Source: Ignavibacteriaceae bacterium
GTDB taxonomy: Bacteria; Bacteroidota; Ignavibacteria; Ignavibacteriales; Ignavibacteriaceae
Direction: 5' to 3'
Assembly: GCA_013360295.1 (NCBI GenBank)
Contig: JABWCL010000022.1
Span: forward strand, 1 to 64,000
DNA: 64,000 nucleotides
The notes beneath the pieces are model-generated. The model did not search any database. It saw only the letters and a list, made by a program, of their open reading frames with translations, and was not told where the DNA came from. Positions 1 through 9,184 of the stretch are shown in pieces. Each line of letters opens with the position of its first letter. Position 1 is the stretch's first letter. The position numbers and the translations under genes are program-made.

Positions 1-431
1 AGTTTCAATCCACGCACGCGTATAGCGTGCGACATGATATTGTAACACCAAAACCAAATTTATCAAAGTTTCAATCCACGCACGCGTATAGCGTGCGACA
101 ACAAAACTTTCATTCATACAGTCTATAAATCTTGTTTCAATCCACGCACGCGTATAGCGTGCGACACAACTTCAAAACCTGAAGCAATACAAAAATAAAC
201 GTTTCAATCCACGCACGCGTATAGCGTGCGACAAGAAAATTATTTGCATTCACCACATAATCACATTGTTTCAATCCACGCACGCGTATAGCGTGCGACA
301 TTATATAGTAAGAGCAAAAGTTAGAAAGATATGTTTCAATCCACGCACGCGTATAGCGTGCGACGTTATCCGCCGTGTATCCGTTGATAAAGTAATTCTG
401 TTTCAATCCACGCACGCGTATAGCGTGCGAC
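1..431 (-). CRISPR. Type I-C CRISPR array (7 repeats visible, truncated at left edge)
   Basis: Seven identical 32-nt repeats lie at 2-33, 68-99, 134-165, 201-232, 268-299, 333-364 and 400-431. On the plus strand each begins GTTTCAATCC and ends GCGTGCGAC. The six complete spacers are 33-35 nt. The repeat contains a 7-bp stem (CGCACGC/GCGTGCG). Read on the minus strand it ends GTGGATTGAAAC, the usual 3' end of type I-C repeats, so the array is probably transcribed leftward from a leader next to cas2. No repeat variant is seen, so the degenerate distal end is not in view, and base 1 belongs to another spacer. The array therefore continues beyond the window. Confidence 0.98.
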
Positions 432-603: not shown

Positions 604-894
604 TCAAAGTATAAGCGTATCGTCAGCCTTTAAGTTTTTACTGACGCCATAATGTTCGTGCCGCCTTTTCCAATTGGCGCCGAGGTAATAAAATCTAAGG
701 CTGTCTTCCTCCGGATTATAAATTGAGAGCAGCTGATGTTTCAGGAATTCCCATTGAGCGGGATCTACCATACATTCAAAGACCGAATACTGCGCCCTGA
801 TCCCGAAATTGAGGCAGGTCTCCGCCACCTTTTTCAGCCTTTTGCGCCCGGTCAGAGTCTTGGTAGATACATCATAACTGACCACGACCATCAT
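604..894 (-). CDS. cas2: CRISPR-associated endonuclease Cas2
   Basis: This 96-residue protein is the normal length for Cas2. It opens with MMVVVSYDVS, the first beta strand of the ferredoxin-like fold, with the conserved Asp at position 8. The remainder (TGRKRLKKVAETCLNFG, then QYSVFECMVD) is typical of Cas2. Cas2 dimers bridge Cas1 dimers in the complex that integrates new spacers. It is the last gene of the cas operon, 22 nt after cas1, and lies next to the leader and array. The family assignment is secure. Confidence 0.97.
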   Translation of the reverse strand: MMVVVSYDVSTKTLTGRKRLKKVAETCLNFGIRAQYSVFECMVDPAQWEFLKHQLLSIYNPEEDSLRFYYLGANWKRRHEHYGVSKNLKADDTLIL

Positions 895-916: not shown

Positions 917-1960
917 TTATTTTAAATAAAAGGGAGGATATTCATCTATATCGCCTCTTATGTATCTTGCTAAAAGTTGCGCCTGTATATGGGGCAGCAA
1001 GCCTATCGTCATTTTTTCTCCCAGAAATGGATGTATGATTTCCTCCTGCTTCCTCTTTTGGTAAGCGGTCAGCAGTTCTTTTCTTGCCTTATCCGACATC
1101 CGAACTTCGCCAGATTCTCTTATTTCAAAATCATCCTTTGTCACTTGTTTAAGGTTTATCAGGTTCAGCATAATCCTGTCCCCCAGGTATGCGCGGAACT
1201 CTTCCATCATATCAAGCGCGAGGCTGGGGCGCCCGGGCCTGATGCGGTGCAGAAACCCTACCTGCGGATCAAGTCCGACAGTTTCCAGTGAAGACCGGAC
1301 ATCGTTCGCCAGTATAGTATATAAAAATGAAAGCATCGCGTTCGCCGGATCCAGCGGGGGGCGCCGGCTGCGTCCGGTAAAACGGAAATCATTTTCCTGT
1401 TCAACGATCAGTTCGGGCAATACTCCGAAATATTCCGAAGCGCACTCCCCTTCATACCCGCGAAGTTCATCTAAAGATTCTGCCGCCCGTATGTTTCTAA
1501 GCCTCCCGCCAAGAAGTTCAACCGCCGAACCGGTTTCGTCAGAATATTTATCAGGGTGGTTTCTCTGATGCCTTTGCAGCATATACCTGTAATTTGAAAC
1601 TTTTGCGGCTACAATATTTTTTGCAATCTTCAGAGATTCAGGCTCGCTGTCAGAGAGGCTGTACTGTGTCTTCCGGAGCAGCACGTTCCCTTTCTGCGCG
1701 CCATATACACGCGCAAGAAACCTTCCCGTTTCAGTAAGGTAGCTGATCCCCACATTCTTTTCGGCGCAAAATGCCATTATTTGCGGGCTTAATGGTTTGA
1801 AGCCAAAGCACACGATGTTTTCAATTGTATGCACCGGTGCCTGAAGCGCTTTTTTTGTTTCCCCGTCGGCATTCCGCAATTCAACCACAAAGGTCTCGTG
1901 TTCTTTCCGGACGTATGCATCGTCGGAAGTTATGTAAAGCGTATTAAGATGGCGTTTCAT
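917..1960 (-). CDS. cas1: CRISPR-associated integrase Cas1 (type I-C)
   Basis: The protein has 347 residues, usual for Cas1 of subtype I-C. The N-terminal beta-rich part starts MKRHLNTLYITSDDAYVRKE. The C-terminal helical domain carries the expected catalytic acid, histidine and aspartate positions, visible as EYFGVLPEL and then GFLHRIRPGRPSLALDMMEE. Cas1 is the metal-dependent integrase that inserts protospacers at the leader end of the array. The start overlaps the end of cas4 by 4 bp (1957-1960), so the two are translationally coupled. It should act with Cas2 and Cas4 in adaptation. Confidence 0.97.
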   Translation of the reverse strand: MKRHLNTLYITSDDAYVRKEHETFVVELRNADGETKKALQAPVHTIENIVCFGFKPLSPQIMAFCAEKNVGISYLTETGRFLARVYGAQKGNVLLRKTQYSLSDSEPESLKIAKNIVAAKVSNYRYMLQRHQRNHPDKYSDETGSAVELLGGRLRNIRAAESLDELRGYEGECASEYFGVLPELIVEQENDFRFTGRSRRPPLDPANAMLSFLYTILANDVRSSLETVGLDPQVGFLHRIRPGRPSLALDMMEEFRAYLGDRIMLNLINLKQVTKDDFEIRESGEVRMSDKARKELLTAYQKRKQEEIIHPFLGEKMTIGLLPHIQAQLLARYIRGDIDEYPPFYLK

Positions 1961-2580
1961 ACCGTAAATAAATCGTTAATGTAAGAATTAAGTTTGGCCC
2001 TGTCCATTGATTTCGGCTGGCAGATATCCATTAAGGAACAGTTTCTGCACTTCGCGGAGTATGCGGCGCGGGGCGCTTTTTTTGAAGTTACTATTTCCCT
2101 TACCCCGTCAATTACTTTAACCGTTTGTTCTCGCAATATTTCCGATAATTCAACTGAAACCCGCCGCCGGATCTTTCCGTAGAAAAAAGCGCCGTTCATT
2201 ACCCGAATACTGAGCATTTCTTCAAGGCAAAGCGCCTGAGCGCATAGCTGTACTTCATCGCTGATATCGCCTTTAGGTTCGCCAGCCTTGTATTCTACGG
2301 GAATTACTTCAGAAGTATCTTTTGATTTCCGGAATTCCACAACATCGCACCTGCCCGTTAAGCCAAACTCGTAAGAATGAATCCTCAATCCCCTGACGGT
2401 CTTAACATCGCCGCGGGTTTCGAAGGTGTCAGTATCAACTTTTTCGTGCAGTATCTCACCCCTCGCGGTGAAAAGGTTATCCTGCCAGGCATCTTCAACG
2501 TGAATAAGCCCGCATTGACGGGGGCAATAAATATAGTGCTGCAGGGCACTGATCATAATAAAGTCGTCTTCACAGTACAC
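1957..2580 (-). CDS. cas4: CRISPR-associated exonuclease Cas4
   Basis: The protein has 207 residues and is a RecB-like nuclease. It has an N-terminal cysteine pair in YIYCPRQCGLIHVE, the nuclease motif VIPVEYKAGEPKG with the catalytic Glu-x-Lys, the QLCAQALCLEEM helix, and a C-terminal cluster CRNCSLMDIC. The four cysteines should bind a 4Fe-4S cluster. Cas4 trims prespacers and helps select the PAM and orientation in I-C systems. It overlaps cas1 by 4 bp. Only 2 nt separate its start from the stop of the preceding BRO/DinD-like gene, so all three are likely on one transcript. Confidence 0.97.
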   Translation of the reverse strand: MYCEDDFIMISALQHYIYCPRQCGLIHVEDAWQDNLFTARGEILHEKVDTDTFETRGDVKTVRGLRIHSYEFGLTGRCDVVEFRKSKDTSEVIPVEYKAGEPKGDISDEVQLCAQALCLEEMLSIRVMNGAFFYGKIRRRVSVELSEILREQTVKVIDGVREIVTSKKAPRAAYSAKCRNCSLMDICQPKSMDRAKLNSYINDLFTV

Positions 2581-2582
2581 AG

Positions 2583-3428
2583 TTATTCTCCGCTTTTATC
2601 ACGCAGCCTTTTCTTTTTTTCCGCAATGGCATTAAAATTTTGGTTTGTTACAACCTTTTTGCCGGATTTGGCCTCAAGGTCTTTTCTTGCTTTCCCCGCT
2701 ACAGAGCCTCCTTCAACCGCGGCTTTTTTATTTTCCGGGAAACCTTGTGCATTTTTATTCCTGGCGATTTCGGTGGTGGCGGCCTCGCCCAGCATCGTAA
2801 AGATCAGCTCAAGATCGGTCATATGATCCCTAAGGTTCTCTTTAGGTTTGGAGAGCCCTTTGAAGTTTTTATATTCAGCGGGAGTTAATCCGAATGTTGC
2901 TTTGCTGATTTCGGAGGTAAGGATTGCATATTCCAGGCCTTCCTTAACTCCGCGGTTTTTCCACTCGTTAGTAAGTTCATCGCGGACTGCAATGCCCCTT
3001 ACTCTTTTTTCAATCCACTCGTCGCTGTAACCCTTGGCCTTGTATAGTTCCCGCATTCTTTTCTGGGCAAGCTCGGGATTTTCAATTTCCTCCAGGCGTT
3101 CATAGCCGACTTTAGCCAGCCAAAGTTTCAGCGGTTCAACTTTTGGGGAAGGGACAGACTGAATTAACCTTAACAATTGTCCGGCATCGGCAACATCGGT
3201 AAGCCGCATTTTTCCATCGGCGGCAGGTAATTTCAAAGCGTTACAATTTGTAACGGTTTCATTTCCCTCCGCTTTTAACCGCTTTTTCAGGACGCGCCAA
3301 TAAACCTGCGGATTGGGGCTGTCTGTCAGAGCAGCGAGCACATCCACAACGGCAAAATACCACTTTTGTTCTGCATCGTTCCATTGGGAGCGGATTTGTT
3401 TTTGTTCAAATAATTTTATGTTTGGCAC
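2583..3428 (-). CDS. BRO-N / DinD-like protein embedded in the cas operon
   Basis: This 281-residue protein is not a core Cas protein. Residues 1 to about 120 look like a BRO-N (phage antirepressor type) domain: IRSQWNDAEQKWYFAVVDVL, then YWRVLKKRLK and LTDVADAGQLLRLIQSVPS. The C-terminal half resembles E. coli DinD (DNA-damage-inducible protein D), with TSEISKATFGLTPAEYKNFK, then DHMTDLELIFTMLGEAATTE and a basic tail. DinD is reported to inhibit RecA; whether that applies here is unknown. It follows the cas7 stop by 14 nt and ends 2 nt before cas4, on the same strand, so it is positioned as an operon member. A recent phage-derived insertion is an alternative, but no phage neighbours or repeats flank it. 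Confidence 0.85.
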   Translation of the reverse strand: MPNIKLFEQKQIRSQWNDAEQKWYFAVVDVLAALTDSPNPQVYWRVLKKRLKAEGNETVTNCNALKLPAADGKMRLTDVADAGQLLRLIQSVPSPKVEPLKLWLAKVGYERLEEIENPELAQKRMRELYKAKGYSDEWIEKRVRGIAVRDELTNEWKNRGVKEGLEYAILTSEISKATFGLTPAEYKNFKGLSKPKENLRDHMTDLELIFTMLGEAATTEIARNKNAQGFPENKKAAVEGGSVAGKARKDLEAKSGKKVVTNQNFNAIAEKKKRLRDKSGE

Positions 3429-3442
3429 TTTGTTTCCTATTC

Positions 3443-4306
3443 TTAATGCAATTCAATTATTTTAAAGATATCGCTAAAAGTTTTTCCGTCAAGATGAATT
3501 TCGTAGTCGGAGTAATTGCGGGCAGGAACCCCTTCTCCGGTTATCTTCTTATGAGTAACCCTTGAAAAAAGTTCGTGCGCCATCCCGTTTCCTAACGCGG
3601 AACTGTGTTTGAAGACTATCAGTTTGCGCAAATTCATTTCACCTCTTGCGGCGGATCTGTCGTGTTCAAACATATTTTGCATCGCTTCAAAGAACAGATT
3701 TAAATCCTCGTCGCTGAATCCGGTTTGTTCAGCGAGATGCGCTGAAATGAATCCGTGACCTCTGTACAAACCGTAAGGAACGGTGTATTTGCGGCCCATC
3801 GTTCTGTTGTCTCCGCTTTGTTTTTCAGCTTCAGCCTCTGTTGTTACCGCCATACGTGTAATGCTGTGTTCAAGCGCAACAATCGGGTCCACTGAACGTG
3901 CAAAAGTGATTTGAATTGGACCTCGTACTTGACCAGCATTTTTCCCGGTGGACATAACTGCGCCAAAGGCCCGAATATCATAGTAATTTTTACACATAAC
4001 CATTCTAGCGGCTTCTGTTTTCTCCCCTTTTTCTTTCTTCTTAACTTCAGTATCCTCGTGAGCATTGTCAATTAGATTATTTAATATCGCCTTTTCCTTA
4101 ATAAAGATATCGAATGGTGGTTTGCCCGATTTTATTATTGAAATATAATTTCTGACTTTTCTCTTTATACAAACATCAGTAACCAACCCGTTGCCAGTTT
4201 CCGCATCAATCCGAGGTAAATTACCTGCATCCGGGTCGCCGTTTGGATTACCGTCTTTTACATCGAAGTAAAAAACAAAGTCATAACGATTTTTAATTGT
4301 TTCCAT
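3443..4306 (-). CDS. cas7: Cas7 (Csd2/Cas7c), Cascade backbone subunit, type I-C
   Basis: The protein has 287 residues, the usual Csd2 size. It starts [20 protein letters not shown] and continues with [15 protein letters not shown], a hallmark of Cas7 of subtype I-C. Other family segments are [20 protein letters not shown] and [14 protein letters not shown]. Multiple Cas7 copies form the helical filament that holds the crRNA spacer. It lies 21 nt downstream of cas8c. The BRO/DinD-like gene follows it where cas4 would be expected. Confidence 0.96.
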
Positions 4307-4327: not shown

Positions 4328-6076
4328 TTATTGGTTATTTGTTTCTGTTTCGTTTTTTGATTTATCGTTTTTTGGGGTAAAGAAATCCTGCCTTTGATGG
4401 TAATAGCCGATGGCAAAATATGCCTGTTCATTCAAAGATAAATTAGAGGGGAATAAATTGATTCCTTCTATTATTTCTCCGATCAGCTTTTCAAAAAACA
4501 CTTTCTTTCCTTCGCTCAGTTTTTTGATATGTGCGTTTTTCAGGCTCAAGAGCCGGGGAAAGACTGTAACCGGCGTGCTTGATGCCGCACTGTAGAATCT
4601 ATCCCGGATAGTTGCATTTATGCCGGGACTAGATTCTTCCTGAATTTTTTCCAGAACGGCAAATAGTCTTCCCGTTCTGTAAGATATGTTTGTGTTTTGA
4701 GGGTCTAAAGCCATAAGTAGCTCCTTTTGTTTATTATTAAATTTATTATAACGGTTAAAAAATGCTTTTATTATTGCGGCACGGGTACGGTTAACCGACC
4801 TTTCGGCCCTGATCCGAATCATACACTGATGAAGCAGTGCGCGCGGGTAGGGTGTACCGTCTACTATACTCTCAATAACTGCACCGGCGAGGTTGGGAGG
4901 GACATTATCCATTTTGTAACCGAGCGCGGTTGAAGAAAGTATTTGGTATAAACTCAGATATTTTTTCTCATTTGGGCCGTGGATAATCTCGAAATCCTCG
5001 AAATGTGCTTTAATGTTTTTTCCAAAATCTTCCACTGAGGGGGACCTCCAAAAACGGACAGAGATCCGGGCCGAATTTGGGGCAAGACCGAGCAAATAAA
5101 AATGGTTAGAATGCTCGGAAGATAATTGTCCGGTATGAATGGATTCAATGAGTTTTAAAATTTTCTCAGATCCGGCATCGGGATTATCATCCTGTGTTTT
5201 CTGGGCGGCTACAACCCAAGAGAAAATTTCCTCTGGGTTAACCGAGGTACTCCTATTTTCACTCCAAAATACAATAGTAGTGTCTGCAATAGTAACTTTA
5301 TTTTTCGAATCTTTTCCCAACAAACTGTTAAGCGCGGTCGTATAACCGAAGGCAGCTTTCTCAGAAATCGGGGCATTAAAATTTTGTGTGCGTCCGTATG
5401 AATTAAAGGCAGCAAGATTAAAAGAAACGAGGGCGCCCCCCTGAGTATTACCTCCTCTAACACCTTTTATGTTTGGGTGTAACCGGCTGATTGAAGAATT
5501 TGCTTCGCCGGTAATAAGACAAACCCCGGAAGGATTATCTGACTTAATTCTATTTATTTTTGTACGAACATCATCGCATATACAACTATGGGCATACTCA
5601 TCAATCTTGAATACAATAAACGGATTTTCATCAAGCATTATTTTCCATAAATCGTTATATGAAGATTTTTCGATTTGATCAACGGGATCATCCTGAAGAA
5701 AGATCATTAAACTTTTTACAGACGGACTTTCATTAATATTAATCTCTGCTTTAATCTTCTCCAAAAAGAGCCCGAATCTTTCCTCCACATCGGTTCTATT
5801 CCGCGGATTTGCCCCCAGCGCGTATTCGATATTATCCCATAGGAGATTAGCGGATTTTCCAACTGTTCTTTTAACAGATTGGGGCACTAAAAATTTTTTT
5901 GAACGCATCTTTTTACCCTCTCCCTCTTTAGTGTCCTCAATGGCAACAAATTTGCCAAGCATATTTATCACTATCCGGTAAGGTATCTCCTTCCATTCCC
6001 ATCCCTCTGGAGCTATTGAGTTGTTATCGGCAGCGGCTTTTCGGTTGTAATAATCGTTCAACGCCTGTAAAATCAT
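4328..6076 (-). CDS. cas8c: Cas8c (Csd1), large subunit of type I-C Cascade
   Basis: The protein has 582 residues, within the Csd1/Cas8c range. It begins MILQALNDYYNRKAA and contains family segments such as CLITGEANSSISRLHPNIKG and RGGNTQGGALVSFNLAAFNS. A C-terminal helical region is compatible with the small-subunit-like part that I-C systems can produce from an internal start in cas8c. Cas8c recognises the PAM and recruits Cas3. Its start overlaps the cas5 stop by 4 bp. The family call is firm; the internal small subunit is not tested. Confidence 0.95.
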   Translation of the reverse strand: MILQALNDYYNRKAAADNNSIAPEGWEWKEIPYRIVINMLGKFVAIEDTKEGEGKKMRSKKFLVPQSVKRTVGKSANLLWDNIEYALGANPRNRTDVEERFGLFLEKIKAEININESPSVKSLMIFLQDDPVDQIEKSSYNDLWKIMLDENPFIVFKIDEYAHSCICDDVRTKINRIKSDNPSGVCLITGEANSSISRLHPNIKGVRGGNTQGGALVSFNLAAFNSYGRTQNFNAPISEKAAFGYTTALNSLLGKDSKNKVTIADTTIVFWSENRSTSVNPEEIFSWVVAAQKTQDDNPDAGSEKILKLIESIHTGQLSSEHSNHFYLLGLAPNSARISVRFWRSPSVEDFGKNIKAHFEDFEIIHGPNEKKYLSLYQILSSTALGYKMDNVPPNLAGAVIESIVDGTPYPRALLHQCMIRIRAERSVNRTRAAIIKAFFNRYNKFNNKQKELLMALDPQNTNISYRTGRLFAVLEKIQEESSPGINATIRDRFYSAASSTPVTVFPRLLSLKNAHIKKLSEGKKVFFEKLIGEIIEGINLFPSNLSLNEQAYFAIGYYHQRQDFFTPKNDKSKNETETNNQ

Positions 6077-6834
6077 TTTCTTATCTCCTGACTGGTATGG
6101 TGAGGAATATGAACCACTCCATTTTCGATTTTAGCCTGGAAAAACATTGGTTTTGGATCGTTGGGGTCTGTGAAGTCCAGATCATATAGCATAAACCCGA
6201 GTTCTTTTGATTCATCTATTGGTGCCGACTTATCCGTATCAGGGTCTTTTACAAATCTGAAACTGCAGGAAAACTCCCGGTTTCCAAGATACGGCTGATT
6301 GAAACACTGTCCTTTAGTTGCTCGCCTTTCAAAAATGGAAAGATATTTCCCCGGATTTTCGTCCTTCCGGAAAGCATCTTTCTGTTCCTCCCAATCTTTA
6401 ATATCCTGTAAAAGCAACTCGCGTTCTTCAGGATCCCACAAATAATCAGGAACAGTCCTGTGTCTATTGTTCAATCGTTCTGCAATCGGTATAAATTCCA
6501 AAACCGCATAGAACCGGTACTTAACATCACGCAAGAAATAACCTGCTCGCTGCTGCCGGGCGTCTTCGATAATTATTCCGGTTGAGCGCTCAGACGCAAC
6601 TGCCCCAACTTCATTTCGCCTTACTGATATCCATTTGATCGGATTCAGAATTTCAATTTTTACGGGGTGCCAGCGTATCGCGGGTTTCCAGAAAATTGCT
6701 TCGAAAACTGCCCTGACCGCAGAGGGCGTGGGGACATCATAACTGACTCTCTCAACTTTCATCTCAGGCCGTGTGAAGCAGGCATAATCTCCCCACACTT
6801 CCAGGCAAAATGGTTTATGCTTAAGATTATTCAT
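6073..6834 (-). CDS. cas5: Cas5 (Cas5c/Cas5d), crRNA-processing subunit of type I-C
   Basis: The protein has 253 residues. It starts near the typical Cas5c pattern KPFCLEVWGDYACFTRPEMK, followed by VERVSYDVPTPSAVRAVFEA. In subtype I-C there is no Cas6; Cas5 itself cleaves the repeat RNA and keeps the 5' handle. The absence of cas6 in this locus agrees with that. The stop overlaps the cas8c start by 4 bp, and a 61-nt gap separates it from cas3. Later segments (NRREFSC-like strand around NREFSCSFRF and LGFMLYDLDF) fit the family. Confidence 0.95.
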   Translation of the reverse strand: MNNLKHKPFCLEVWGDYACFTRPEMKVERVSYDVPTPSAVRAVFEAIFWKPAIRWHPVKIEILNPIKWISVRRNEVGAVASERSTGIIIEDARQQRAGYFLRDVKYRFYAVLEFIPIAERLNNRHRTVPDYLWDPEERELLLQDIKDWEEQKDAFRKDENPGKYLSIFERRATKGQCFNQPYLGNREFSCSFRFVKDPDTDKSAPIDESKELGFMLYDLDFTDPNDPKPMFFQAKIENGVVHIPHHTSQEIRK

Positions 6835-6895: not shown

Positions 6896-9184
6896 TTAAA
6901 TAACAAAATCTCCTTCTATCCAATCTGATTCATTTGCGAGCAGCCCTATGCCGGGCCTGTAAAGGTTCTCGTCTGCCTGTACCCATAAGCCGTTAATATC
7001 TTCAACGTATCCCGCTTTTTTTATCTCATTAAAAATATAGACGGGTACGTTTACAATATATCTCTGCAGTTTTCTGATTAAACCTTTTGTTCCGCCGGCA
7101 TACTTTAGTTCCCCTATAAATGGCAGGCTGCTTTTTCCTGATTTTGAGCTAGTGTACCGCACGATAATGCTGATTTGCCTTTTTGAATCTATCATTTCGA
7201 ATTTTTCAGCAAGAGCTCTGAAACTAAACTCGAAATTTCCGGCATCTCTAACCATCATATCATAAAATTGAGCGTCGTCGAAAGAATTTAGATTTGCATA
7301 GAGAATGGTGAAATATTCGGAAAGTAATCCCGGTGTAATTTCGTATTCATTATGCTTTCTTAAAATTGCCTTACAGGCATCCTCACATTTTCTGAGGAAA
7401 CCCGGAGGAGAATTTTTTGGGGGAACAAAGATCAAAACATTACCGCCTTCAGGTAATTTATTTTCCCGGTTACAGCGTCCGGAAGCCTGAACAATTGAAT
7501 CAAGGCCCGTCATCGCACGATAAACAACCGGGAAATCAATGTCAACTCCCGCCTCAACAAGCTGAGTGCTAATAACGCGGACGGGTTCGCCATTCTTTAG
7601 CCGGACTTTTATTTCAGAAATTATTTCGCTTATCTCCTCGCCGCACATAAACCGCGAAAGATGTATTGTTCCTTCAGGCATTAGTTTGTGTAATGCGCGG
7701 CAGTCGTTTCTGGTATTAACAATGCATAATGCTTGTTCGTGGGCGCCAATTTGTTTTGCTAAAGCCTCCCAGCTCGATGGATTAATGTAGTTTTCGGGGA
7801 AGTGATACTCAACTCTTTTGAAATCTAAAGCAAGTTTATCCGGATTTTCTATTATTTCTCGCACATTTTCTAAACCATTAATAATGGTTGGAGCCGATCC
7901 CAGAGAACCAATCAATGCAGGTTGTGTGGCTGACATCAACAAAACAGTAACACCGAAATATTTTACAAGACCTTCCAGTACACTCAATATTGGCCTGAAA
8001 TATCCTGTTGGTAACATCTGGGCCTCGTCGAGAATGATAACGCTGTTGCAAATGTTATGAAGTTTCCGGCACACGGAAGTTCTATTTCCGAAGATTGACT
8101 CAAACAATTGAACATTTGTTGTGACAATAATAGGGGCATCCCAGTTTTCGCAGGCAGTTCTGTTGTTGGCTGTTTCTGTTTCGGGGTCCAGGTTGCTGTG
8201 ATGTTCAACAACCTGATCCTCGCCGAACAAATAATTACCCTCCGCTAATCTTTTTGCAATTTCCTCATCAGTGTCAGCTCCGTATTTATAAACCTTAGCG
8301 GTCTGTTCAATTATGCTAGTGTAAGGGATAGCTACTATTATGCGTTTCTTTTTGTGTTTTATGGCGTGTTCTAAAGCAAAAGCCATTGAAGAAAGGGTCT
8401 TTCCGCCACCGGTTGGAACAGTCAAAGAGAAGAAACCGGGTTCTAATTCGGCTTTTTTCCTGCAAATGTCAAGTATCTCTTTTCTTTTCAGATTTAATTG
8501 ATTGTCCCCTGGTTTGGTCTCAATGAAATTATCAAATCTTTGCTTCAGTGTGTCAAGCGGAAGATATCTGCCGCGCTCTTTTTCATCCATATAGCTTTCG
8601 GTGTCAATAAAATCCGCGTCAACCAGAGAAGAAAAGAGCATTCTAACCCATAGATGAAACTGTTCTAAATCAGGAGGATTTTCTTTTGCAACCGCGGGAG
8701 GGGCAGATGGATTTTCGCAATCAAGGAATTCTTGAGCCTCATCTATTGGTTTAATCTTATCTAAATCATTTTTAATAAGGTTACAATCGTTATCAAATAT
8801 CCTATTATAGAGTTGTGGCGTCCAATCAGGCAAGCCGGAATGATGTCCTGCAATTACATAAGCGGTTAGTTTTGCGGCGGGGGAATTTTTAAATTTCTCG
8901 AATAAATGAATAGCTCCGGCAGAGCTGTGATTTGGCCGCGACCTATAATTTTCGATGTGTGCGTCTTCATCATAGTATCCCGCCTTTTTTCTTAAATAGC
9001 TTTGCCAGTCAGGATGATACTTCCCAAGATCGTGCAGCAAACCCACAAGCCTGCCCCAGTCGCCGTTTCCAAATTCAGCGGCAAACTTAGCGGCTCTTTC
9101 GGCTGTTTCTTCTAAATGAAGTTTTAACGGGTGCGGTTCAGCCCAGGTTCCGTCTCTCCGTTTTTTTACGTGCGCCAGATTCAT
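6896..9184 (-). CDS. cas3: CRISPR-associated helicase/nuclease Cas3 (HD + SF2 helicase)
   Basis: The protein has 762 residues. The N-terminal HD nuclease domain shows His23, the His51-Asp52 pair in LLHDLGKYHPDW, and the later AYVIAGHHSG motif. The SF2 helicase follows with Walker A (VPTGGGKT), ILDEAQML, LLMSATQP and a C-terminal QLVEAGVDIDFP plus QASGRCNRE motif. Cas3 is recruited by Cascade to degrade target DNA. It is the first gene of the operon. About 134 nt separate it from the convergent-side neighbour, enough for an operon promoter, though no clear box was picked out. All key motifs are present, so interference should be functional. Confidence 0.97.
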   Translation of the reverse strand: MNLAHVKKRRDGTWAEPHPLKLHLEETAERAAKFAAEFGNGDWGRLVGLLHDLGKYHPDWQSYLRKKAGYYDEDAHIENYRSRPNHSSAGAIHLFEKFKNSPAAKLTAYVIAGHHSGLPDWTPQLYNRIFDNDCNLIKNDLDKIKPIDEAQEFLDCENPSAPPAVAKENPPDLEQFHLWVRMLFSSLVDADFIDTESYMDEKERGRYLPLDTLKQRFDNFIETKPGDNQLNLKRKEILDICRKKAELEPGFFSLTVPTGGGKTLSSMAFALEHAIKHKKKRIIVAIPYTSIIEQTAKVYKYGADTDEEIAKRLAEGNYLFGEDQVVEHHSNLDPETETANNRTACENWDAPIIVTTNVQLFESIFGNRTSVCRKLHNICNSVIILDEAQMLPTGYFRPILSVLEGLVKYFGVTVLLMSATQPALIGSLGSAPTIINGLENVREIIENPDKLALDFKRVEYHFPENYINPSSWEALAKQIGAHEQALCIVNTRNDCRALHKLMPEGTIHLSRFMCGEEISEIISEIKVRLKNGEPVRVISTQLVEAGVDIDFPVVYRAMTGLDSIVQASGRCNRENKLPEGGNVLIFVPPKNSPPGFLRKCEDACKAILRKHNEYEITPGLLSEYFTILYANLNSFDDAQFYDMMVRDAGNFEFSFRALAEKFEMIDSKRQISIIVRYTSSKSGKSSLPFIGELKYAGGTKGLIRKLQRYIVNVPVYIFNEIKKAGYVEDINGLWVQADENLYRPGIGLLANESDWIEGDFVI

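Follow-up and report, generated by a model that had tools for sequence, protein, structure and literature searches.

The BRO gene embedded in the type I-C cas operon of this Ignavibacteriaceae bacterium is best explained as encoding a DNA-binding protein that recognizes a palindrome within its own coding DNA and probably acts there as an autorepressor or roadblock, with the recognition helix and its site being exchanged between genes as one cassette. We give this reading as a whole a probability of roughly 0.6. The covariation of protein residues with palindrome bases points to a sequence-specific DNA-binding protein with its site in its own gene. The window, i.e., the whole 64,000-nucleotide stretch of DNA analyzed, carries on its minus strand a complete type I-C operon in the order cas3, cas5, cas8c, cas7, BRO, cas4, cas1, and cas2, as established from the open reading frame (ORF) list and profile searches. 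The features of the locus are as follows.

1..430, no strand: CRISPR repeat-spacer array with a 32-bp repeat, cut by the window edge, read by eye
604..894, minus strand: cas2
917..1960, minus strand: cas1 (type I-C)
1957..2580, minus strand: cas4, downstream neighbour of BRO and first gene of the adaptation module
2583..3428, minus strand: BRO gene (281 aa, GTG start, PDC-S13 profile), with a predicted Bro-N winged helix-turn-helix and helical C-terminal domain
3162..3389, minus strand: codons 14 to 89, predicted winged helix-turn-helix, proposed exchangeable specificity cassette
3235..3259, no strand: palindrome AAAGCGTTACAATTTGTAACGGTTT (plus-strand letters) in codons 57 to 65 of the BRO gene, the site that the BRO protein is proposed to bind
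3270..3311, minus strand: codons 40 to 53, predicted recognition helix, in which residues 41, 42, 45, 46, and 49 covary with palindrome bases
3443..4306, minus strand: cas7 (csd2), upstream neighbour of BRO
4328..6076, minus strand: cas8c (csd1)
6073..6834, minus strand: cas5c
6896..9184, minus strand: cas3

The position of the gene is as the sequence-only reading had described it, namely, a 281-residue BRO gene between cas7 and cas4 on the minus strand, 14 nt after cas7 and 2 nt before cas4, and the type I-C setting was upheld by profile searches, in which the neighbours were clear type I-C proteins. The BRO protein passed the curated cut-off of the Pfam Bro-N family (PF02498; 31.4 bits over residues 11 to 106, cut-off 25.6) and matched the PADLOC profile PDC-S13 at 426 bits over residues 3 to 275. 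PDC-S13 is a candidate label only, and its name was not found in the open-access literature searched. The DinD-like label given earlier proved weak, with the match to the NCBIfam DinD equivalog (NF008573) being limited to residues 147 to 242 and reaching 21.3 bits against a curated cut-off of 242; a true DinD identity was rejected on this ground. No nuclease or integrase family was matched by the window BRO protein in the profile searches.

Bro-N phage antirepressors share the Bro-N domain, which is above the Pfam cut-off in BRO, but end in Ant or KilA-C domains (PMC2701414), neither of which was found in the window protein by profile search. Matches to BRO were present in 4 of 50,697 phage records, all of them short records without annotation, and in 11 of 72,556 plasmids, too few for a phage gene or a phage-borne antirepressor, and this candidate was rejected. 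Searching 600 bases of one locus against phages for close matches only, which is a weak test, returned none. A short plasmid "antirepressor" carried a weak repeat at the corresponding place, as judged by eye, and was left out of the counts below.

The palindrome occupies a fixed place within the family. The strongest inverted repeat of the entire gene was located at codon 50 to 72, mostly near codon 60 to 61, in 98 of 100 BRO genes (two short genes having been left out before this count), and the repeat sequences differ among genes; the strongest repeat lay elsewhere in L029, L075, and a further BRO copy, L228 (L and G numbers are our handles for loci and genomes). Only 47 of the 100 palindromes outscored every one of 60 synonymous shuffles, because part of the palindrome is dictated by the amino acid sequence. 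Synonymous codon identity, calculated for same-residue codons in the 100 genes, was 0.69 in codons 56 to 66 versus 0.40 outside. For the covariation analyses, the palindrome centre was picked for each gene as the best within 5 codons, and the 87 genes with a common centre were retained, yielding 78 unique segments, while the 13 genes with other centres were dropped. Pairing at distances 3, 4, 5, 6, 7, and 8 from the centre was found in 78, 78, 77, 76, 75, and 73 of the 78 segments, respectively, with shuffle means of 27 to 39 and three or four pair types at each of the distances 5 to 8. Across distances 3 to 11, 634 of 702 cells paired in register, compared with 86 to 212 of 702 when the arms were slid by 1 to 4, and 67 of the 78 segments were perfectly paired at distances 3 to 8. 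The centre reads ACA-NNN-TGT in most sequences, and the flanks give 15 core types. Among the titles and abstracts listed in the open-access literature searches, none described a palindrome inside Bro-N, RhuM, or DinD genes.

Such a repeat might work in the transcript, as a hairpin for translation control, as an RNase site, or as the place where the protein binds its own mRNA, considering that the transcript is able to fold at the palindrome and that BRO is codirectional within the operon. However, the mismatches comprised 10 G:T, 9 A:C, and 49 others, and with G:T and A:C at such similar counts there is no G:U (wobble) excess; moreover, the palindrome bases obey a canonical helix-to-duplex code at residue 46 (see below), and the fold predicted for the protein is a winged helix-turn-helix. 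A function as RNA is thus very improbable in our judgment.

Outside codons 57 to 65, the alignment columns most informative on the palindrome were 42, 45, 46, and 41, followed by 54, 49, 53, and 39. The nine variable columns of the model-bounded helix (40 to 53) exceeded the 23 other variable cassette columns in MI/H (p 5e-4), and the helix face formed by columns 41, 42, 45, 46, and 49, which was picked post hoc, exceeded the 27 other variable segment columns (MI/H p 3.5e-5); columns 39 and 54, which flank the modelled helix, reached an MI/H of 0.56. Distances on the helix face were correlated with palindrome distances at a Mantel r of 0.70 (partial 0.60 given the C-terminal and flanking segments), compared with 0.46 (partial 0.31) for the other variable columns in and around the helix, 0.53 for residues 67 to 90, and 0.28 for residues 11 to 36. 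The clearest correspondence was that between residue 46 and the base at distance 5, where V occurred with T in 33 genes, K with G in 25, R with G in 14, and D with C in 6 (78 of 87 in total), and the remaining nine broke this rule (R-T 3, K-T 2, and K-C, M-C, V-A, and A-C 1 each). Contacts of Val with T, Lys or Arg with G, and Asp with C are usual in the major groove. In addition, R45 was accompanied by C at distance 8, i.e., by G on the other strand, in 29 of 30 cases.

Since the helix codons and the palindrome codons are adjacent, linkage explains part of this covariation, as is evident from the correlation of residues 67 to 90, the partial r of the other variable helix columns, and the signal at columns 39 and 54. 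We argue that linkage alone does not explain all of it, because the signal is concentrated on the helix and the contact chemistry fits. The exceptions to the residue-46 rule, the post hoc choice of the helix face, the contribution of codon linkage, the per-gene choice of palindrome centres with 13 genes dropped, the limited number of palindromes that outscored their shuffles, and the three BRO genes whose strongest repeat is elsewhere all count against the preferred reading. Judged from the aligned genes, these results show a dyad kept as DNA, in frame and at a fixed place, and matched to the helix in the manner of usual helix-to-base contacts. The BRO protein very probably binds its palindrome, on which we infer that it dimerizes.

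Structure prediction is consistent with this assignment. The AlphaFold2 model of the BRO protein, built from 89 sequences (pLDDT 89, pTM 0.71), comprised strands 14 to 17 and 22 to 26, helices 27 to 34 and 40 to 53, strands 63 to 68 and 74 to 80, and then further helices, predicting a winged helix-turn-helix with recognition helix 40 to 53 plus a helical C-terminal part; in the model, the palindrome codons encode the turn into the first wing strand. By sequence, no solved relatives were found at E values up to 1, while the structure search of the PDB returned six chains at E 0.001 or better, all of them DdrC of Deinococcus (best E 7.6e-6). The DdrC match had a Z of 14.3 over 210 residues with an rmsd of 11 to 12, a Z that helical proteins may reach by common arrangement, and the N-terminal domain by itself gave a Z of 7.3; matches to other folds had low scores and were disregarded, and a fold's absence from the match list carries no weight. 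DdrC of Deinococcus radiodurans resembles the BRO model in having an N-terminal winged helix-turn-helix and a helical C-terminal part but differs in sequence, with about 11 to 15% identity over the whole chain. According to PMC5436757, DdrC shows no sequence specificity in its DNA binding and also anneals and circularizes DNA. That the nearest fold belongs to a DNA-binding protein favours the preferred reading, and its reported lack of specificity speaks against it.

Similar palindromes were present in two further groups of genes. One comprises genes that we take, from their sequences, to belong to the RhuM family. Thirty of these loci were collected, and four with a wrong short ORF were left out; the strongest repeat was located at codon 65 to 79 in 25 of the 26 remaining ORFs and was second best in the exception. 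Among 21 distinct RhuM genes, the palindrome lay 46 to 49 codons after the common motif used for alignment in 20, and the helix motifs of the 21 genes tracked the palindrome types by eye. RhuM genes are like BRO in that the palindrome precedes an "ADGK" turn, in that they occupy the cas4 site, and in that they adjoin BRO genes in several genomes, but they have another C-terminal part and other palindromes. RhuM has been proposed as a toxin of restriction-modification loci (PMC3710099). The genome of the window itself carries a RhuM-like gene (G000:C91:51109-52113, L204) with a palindrome of its own.

The other group is DinD. In six DinD-like Bro-N genes (L220, L222, L225, L230, L231, and L234), the strongest repeat was found at codon 67 to 71, while the Bro-N loci L213, L214, L218, and L223 had wrong or unresolved ORFs. 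The dinD gene of Escherichia coli K-12 (b3645; NC_000913.3 3817760-3818584) contains TGACCATTTCGAGGAGATCCTCGATATGGTCA at codon 63, with 15-bp arms and one mismatch, whereas no other repeat of the gene is longer than 5 bp and six neighbouring genes reach top repeat scores of 5 to 7. DinD is under SOS control and inhibits RecA. It is like BRO in its distant C-terminal similarity, in the in-frame palindrome of its N-terminal domain, and in an N-terminal block that differs between strains, and it is unlike BRO in that its palindrome is different and in that the window protein falls below the DinD equivalog cut-off. A dinD match was detected in 4,668 of 5,426 E. coli genomes, at ≥95% identity in 1,932, at 80 to 90% in 2,732, and lower in 4, and 415 of the 4,668 matches covered <80% of the gene. 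Compared with K-12, the alleles of O157:H7, F11, and E20 differed in codons about 12 to 85, with about 56 to 58% identity mid-segment, and were 87 to 100% identical per 45-nt step outside this region, to the end of the gene. As judged from these alleles, the N-terminal difference is a cassette swap. The second dinD type, represented by the three intact alleles, has a weaker palindrome (10 of 12 pairs), which is a point against the preferred reading, and in two of the three another repeat scores equally. In the E. coli loci compared (K-12 dinD and L236 to L242), two or more N-terminal types of dinD stand on a nearly identical remainder of the gene, and other alleles are internally deleted or lack dinD altogether; in one strain, dinD is deleted from shortly after the palindrome to near the 3' end.

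The recurrence of the palindrome at the same place in three families also bears on whether it could be a mobile palindromic repeat, of the REP or Rickettsia palindromic element kind, that has lodged in frame and is tolerated. RAYT-like genes do share the cas4 site, and palindromes do persist as nearly solitary remnants. Against this, a Rickettsia-type element in ORFs is the same repeat scattered in unrelated genes, while the palindromes here are not scattered; the two exact cores searched were not dispersed in 196 related genomes, and the palindrome covaries with helix residues coded outside it. A tolerated mobile repeat is accordingly an exceedingly improbable account.

The core CGTTACAANTTGTAACG occurred once each in 8 of the 196 genomes, always in a BRO gene or a BRO remnant, and the RhuM core occurred at 13 places in 11 of the 196 genomes, 12 of them within RhuM ORFs or fragments; the remaining place is a short remnant that resembles RhuM. 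In the window's own genome, two sites were found at up to 2 mismatches, namely, the palindrome itself and one site with 2 mismatches; the reversed control also gave two, and because the control was equally rich, this search neither adds nor removes support. Because the searched cores occur in BRO or RhuM genes, fragments, or remnants, the good site of the BRO protein would be its own gene as far as searched.

Remnants of former residents were observed beside some intact genes. Intact BRO genes lay directly behind remnants of resident genes with another palindrome sequence in L023, L035, L036, L037, L085, and L096. Two or three differing palindromes in a row, like layers of former residents, were seen upstream of intact BRO or RhuM genes or by themselves (L254) in L252, L254, L023, and L262. 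Most measured remnant ends came from 20 stretches hand-picked from the short BRO fragments of the 196-genome search; L096/L251 and L065/L265 are the same places and were counted once, remnants in which the expected palindrome was missing or not scored were left out (L037, L256, the first pieces of L030 and L036, and one L166 piece), and L006, L010, L168, L240, L268, and L270 were without a measured palindrome. Of the 28 measured ends, 13 fell no more than 20 nt downstream of the palindrome, and the other 15 lay farther on (30 to 261 nt, with L255 continuing after a frame change). The remnants fit replacement or breakage near the palindrome but are not decisive.

These observations could be taken as traces of a self-spreading gene, whose protein binds the palindrome and thereby targets its gene, or the N-terminal cassette, to the corresponding site in relatives already resident, perhaps in a homing-like manner with DdrC-like strand annealing and with new copies entering just behind the resident palindrome. 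Multiple copies, a patchy distribution, and high identity between phyla would suit such a process, as would the other-palindrome remnants directly upstream of intact copies, the 13 ends close to the palindrome, the stacking of palindromes, and the frequent change of palindrome type on the C-terminal tree (a count without a shuffled control; see below). On the other hand, the other 15 ends run past the palindrome, the remnants were mostly hand-picked from short fragments, fragments beside the main gene were present in just 14 of 102 loci, and the N-terminal swap in E. coli resembles ordinary homologous recombination. In addition, no conserved sequence beyond the ORF ends was seen by eye in the flanks of the 102 loci, on which ground a classical transposon was rejected, and the match to a nuclease or integrase family is absent. 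Self-spreading therefore seems unlikely, although as a rival it has genuine backing.

Exchange of the N-terminal segment is suggested by the family tree. A quick tree of the BRO C-terminal part had 100 rows and 97 inner branches, of which 11 were starred. The cas label was given to 13 rows, i.e., 11 beside cas4 plus L056 and L059, whose type I-E label was deduced from neighbour sizes and two CT1975 matches; L060, beside cas4, was unlabelled. The label changed 4 times on the tree, versus a shuffled mean of 12.4 (none of 500 shuffles as low), and the starred branches by themselves force 2 changes. A clade of 13, with support 84 but no star, took in eleven cas-labelled rows plus L060 and L038, while L056 and L059 were elsewhere, as were most non-CRISPR BRO copies of the same bacterial families. 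The palindrome core type changed 45 times on the same tree, and palindrome and C-terminal distances gave a Mantel r of 0.03. Because the cas-labelled rows cluster while the palindrome type changes so often, with which the low r agrees, the C-terminal part seems to be long resident beside cas4 and the N-terminal segment repeatedly exchanged. As to the expectation that the gene tree follows the cas loci, the cas-adjacent C-termini largely cluster, but the tree is weakly supported and the palindrome type changes repeatedly on it.

Close cas4 genes were found in 21 of the 196 related genomes, the window's genome counted, and the contents of the stretch before cas4 were assigned from match coordinates and site reading (G000, G005, and G065 were read from coordinates and other locus maps). 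An intact BRO gene was present in eight genomes (G000, G002, G005, G065, G084, G126, G145, and G184), a broken one in four (G026, G029, G052, and G154), another small gene without BRO in six, and no gene in three (G031, G165, and G180). The small genes, named from their sequences, were RhuM-like in G028, G067, and G139, DUF559-like in G097 and G106, and RAYT-like in G090; in G029, a RhuM-like gene lies between the broken BRO and cas4, and in G026, a RAYT-like ORF precedes the broken BRO. BRO was upstream of cas4 on the same strand in the cas4-adjacent loci mapped. The cas7-cas4 junction of relatives (L157, L160 to L163, L166, and L168) is a hot spot of interchangeable BRO, RhuM-like, DUF559-like, and RAYT/IS200-like genes. 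The absence of mobile-element signs noted earlier thus holds for the immediate flanks in the window, but not for relatives, in which the same site has other interchangeable genes, one of them RAYT/IS200-like. The stretches with DUF559-like genes before cas4 (L160/G097 and L162/G106) contain strong inverted repeats, with CCCCTTCTCTTTGAAGAGAAGGGG in both, unlike those of BRO and RhuM. In G002, G028, and G139 (L172, L158, and L159), the last 25 to 28 residues of a type I-C cas7 were matched before BRO or RhuM, while the effectors are of another CRISPR type, and the effector module has probably been exchanged as far as the boundary between cas7 and cas4.

The sequence-only reading had suggested that BRO may be an accessory Cas protein of the DinD kind, perhaps limiting RecA at Cas-made breaks. 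The clustering of cas-adjacent copies on the C-terminal tree, the distant C-terminal similarity to DinD, and the predicted structural similarity to the DNA damage protein DdrC lend this some appeal. Nevertheless, BRO is not a regular component of other type I-C loci, with the 12 genomes that have a strong type I-C cas8c comprising four with an intact BRO, three with a broken one, and five with none, and most sampled BRO copies are outside cas loci. We therefore regard a RecA-limiting Cas factor as highly improbable. The gene is not CRISPR-specific, and cas4 was next downstream in only 12 of 85 sampled loci, which argues against a dedicated Cas gene; together with the mixed contents of the cas4 site, these context counts also weakened the candidate of an accessory Cas protein as such.

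BRO is a conserved coding gene that is widespread, often multi-copy, and mostly outside CRISPR loci, with at least 571 relatives confirmed among 584 candidate stretches in the genome contig scan, of which the best 80 were kept. Matches occurred in 65 of the 196 related genomes, often as several copies with many fragments, and some of these genomes had distant Bro-N relatives only. The window's genome has a second BRO copy outside cas genes that is 53% identical (G000:C7:146933-147754, L002), and its palindrome is of another type than that of the window copy. Archaeal relatives at about 60 to 73% identity were found on contigs labelled DPANN (L027, L051, L058, L061, L066, L067, L071 to L074, L076, and L078) and on contigs labelled archaeon (L039, L069, and L080); DPANN genomes are small. 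After the removal of 9 duplicate loci, the neighbours were codirectional with BRO upstream in 72 of 97 loci and downstream in 76 of 98. The neighbour tally took in 79 of 88 upstream and 85 of 89 downstream ORFs, and the upstream count of Cas7 is low because the cas7 genes of L016 and L022 were among the ORFs left out. Downstream, Cas4 was matched in 12 of 85 loci and an N6/N4 methylase domain in 7, with type III methylase profiles likewise matching in 7, while the other families among the first 25 of 84 Pfam families listed had 1 to 4 members each, except PDDEXK_1 (11), which overlaps Cas4. The gene lies in many operons, as seen from this tally; cas4 is its commonest downstream neighbour in a sample selected for similarity to the window copy.

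We propose that BRO is a DNA-binding protein, consisting of a Bro-N winged helix-turn-helix at the N-terminus and a C-terminal domain of helices, whose specific site would be the palindrome in its own frame (codons 57 to 65), right after the codons of the recognition helix (40 to 53). Because the site lies within the reading frame, protein and site would always travel together, and the helix-plus-site segment may pass from gene to gene as a single cassette, leaving the C-terminal part in place. Such binding would most likely serve negative autoregulation, with a dimer on the palindrome blocking transcription through its own gene, and on balance we expect, with some reservation, that binding lowers transcription of BRO itself. 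In the window operon, such a block would separate the effector genes from cas4-cas1-cas2 and keep the adaptation genes repressed until removal or titration of the protein; that binding also lowers cas4-cas1-cas2, proposed because the site lies between the effector and adaptation genes, is speculative and rather unlikely.

Some known autoregulators, PurR among them, have their operator within or close to the gene that encodes them. Proteins of this type resemble BRO in binding a dyad in or near their own gene, as proposed for BRO, but the BRO site differs in being in the frame of the DNA-binding domain, beside the recognition helix codons, at the same place across families, and swapped together with the helix. 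To our knowledge, no known operator is coded within a DNA-binding domain beside the recognition helix, kept in place across families, and swapped with the helix, and none appeared among the open-access papers listed. Tentatively, then, PDC-S13 BRO, RhuM, and DinD, from archaea to E. coli, might form a class of genes in which a DNA-binding protein and its site share the same nucleotides as an exchangeable cassette with a readable helix-to-base code; the act would be directed at the gene itself, as a roadblock, by cis-tethering, or in self-spreading, and not at other genes as in ordinary regulation, and in CRISPR operons it would form a valve before cas4-cas1-cas2.

For Bro-N, RhuM, and DinD proteins, few of which have a known function, this would provide a concrete predicted activity and a helix-to-base code, also for the product of K-12 dinD. 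The at least 15 natural core site types and their helices may be useful as orthogonal DNA-binding modules. Moreover, the arrangement suggests how a single gene could be accommodated in a wide range of operons with no need for outside regulators, and from it one would expect that in some CRISPR operons the adaptation genes lie behind a self-made block.
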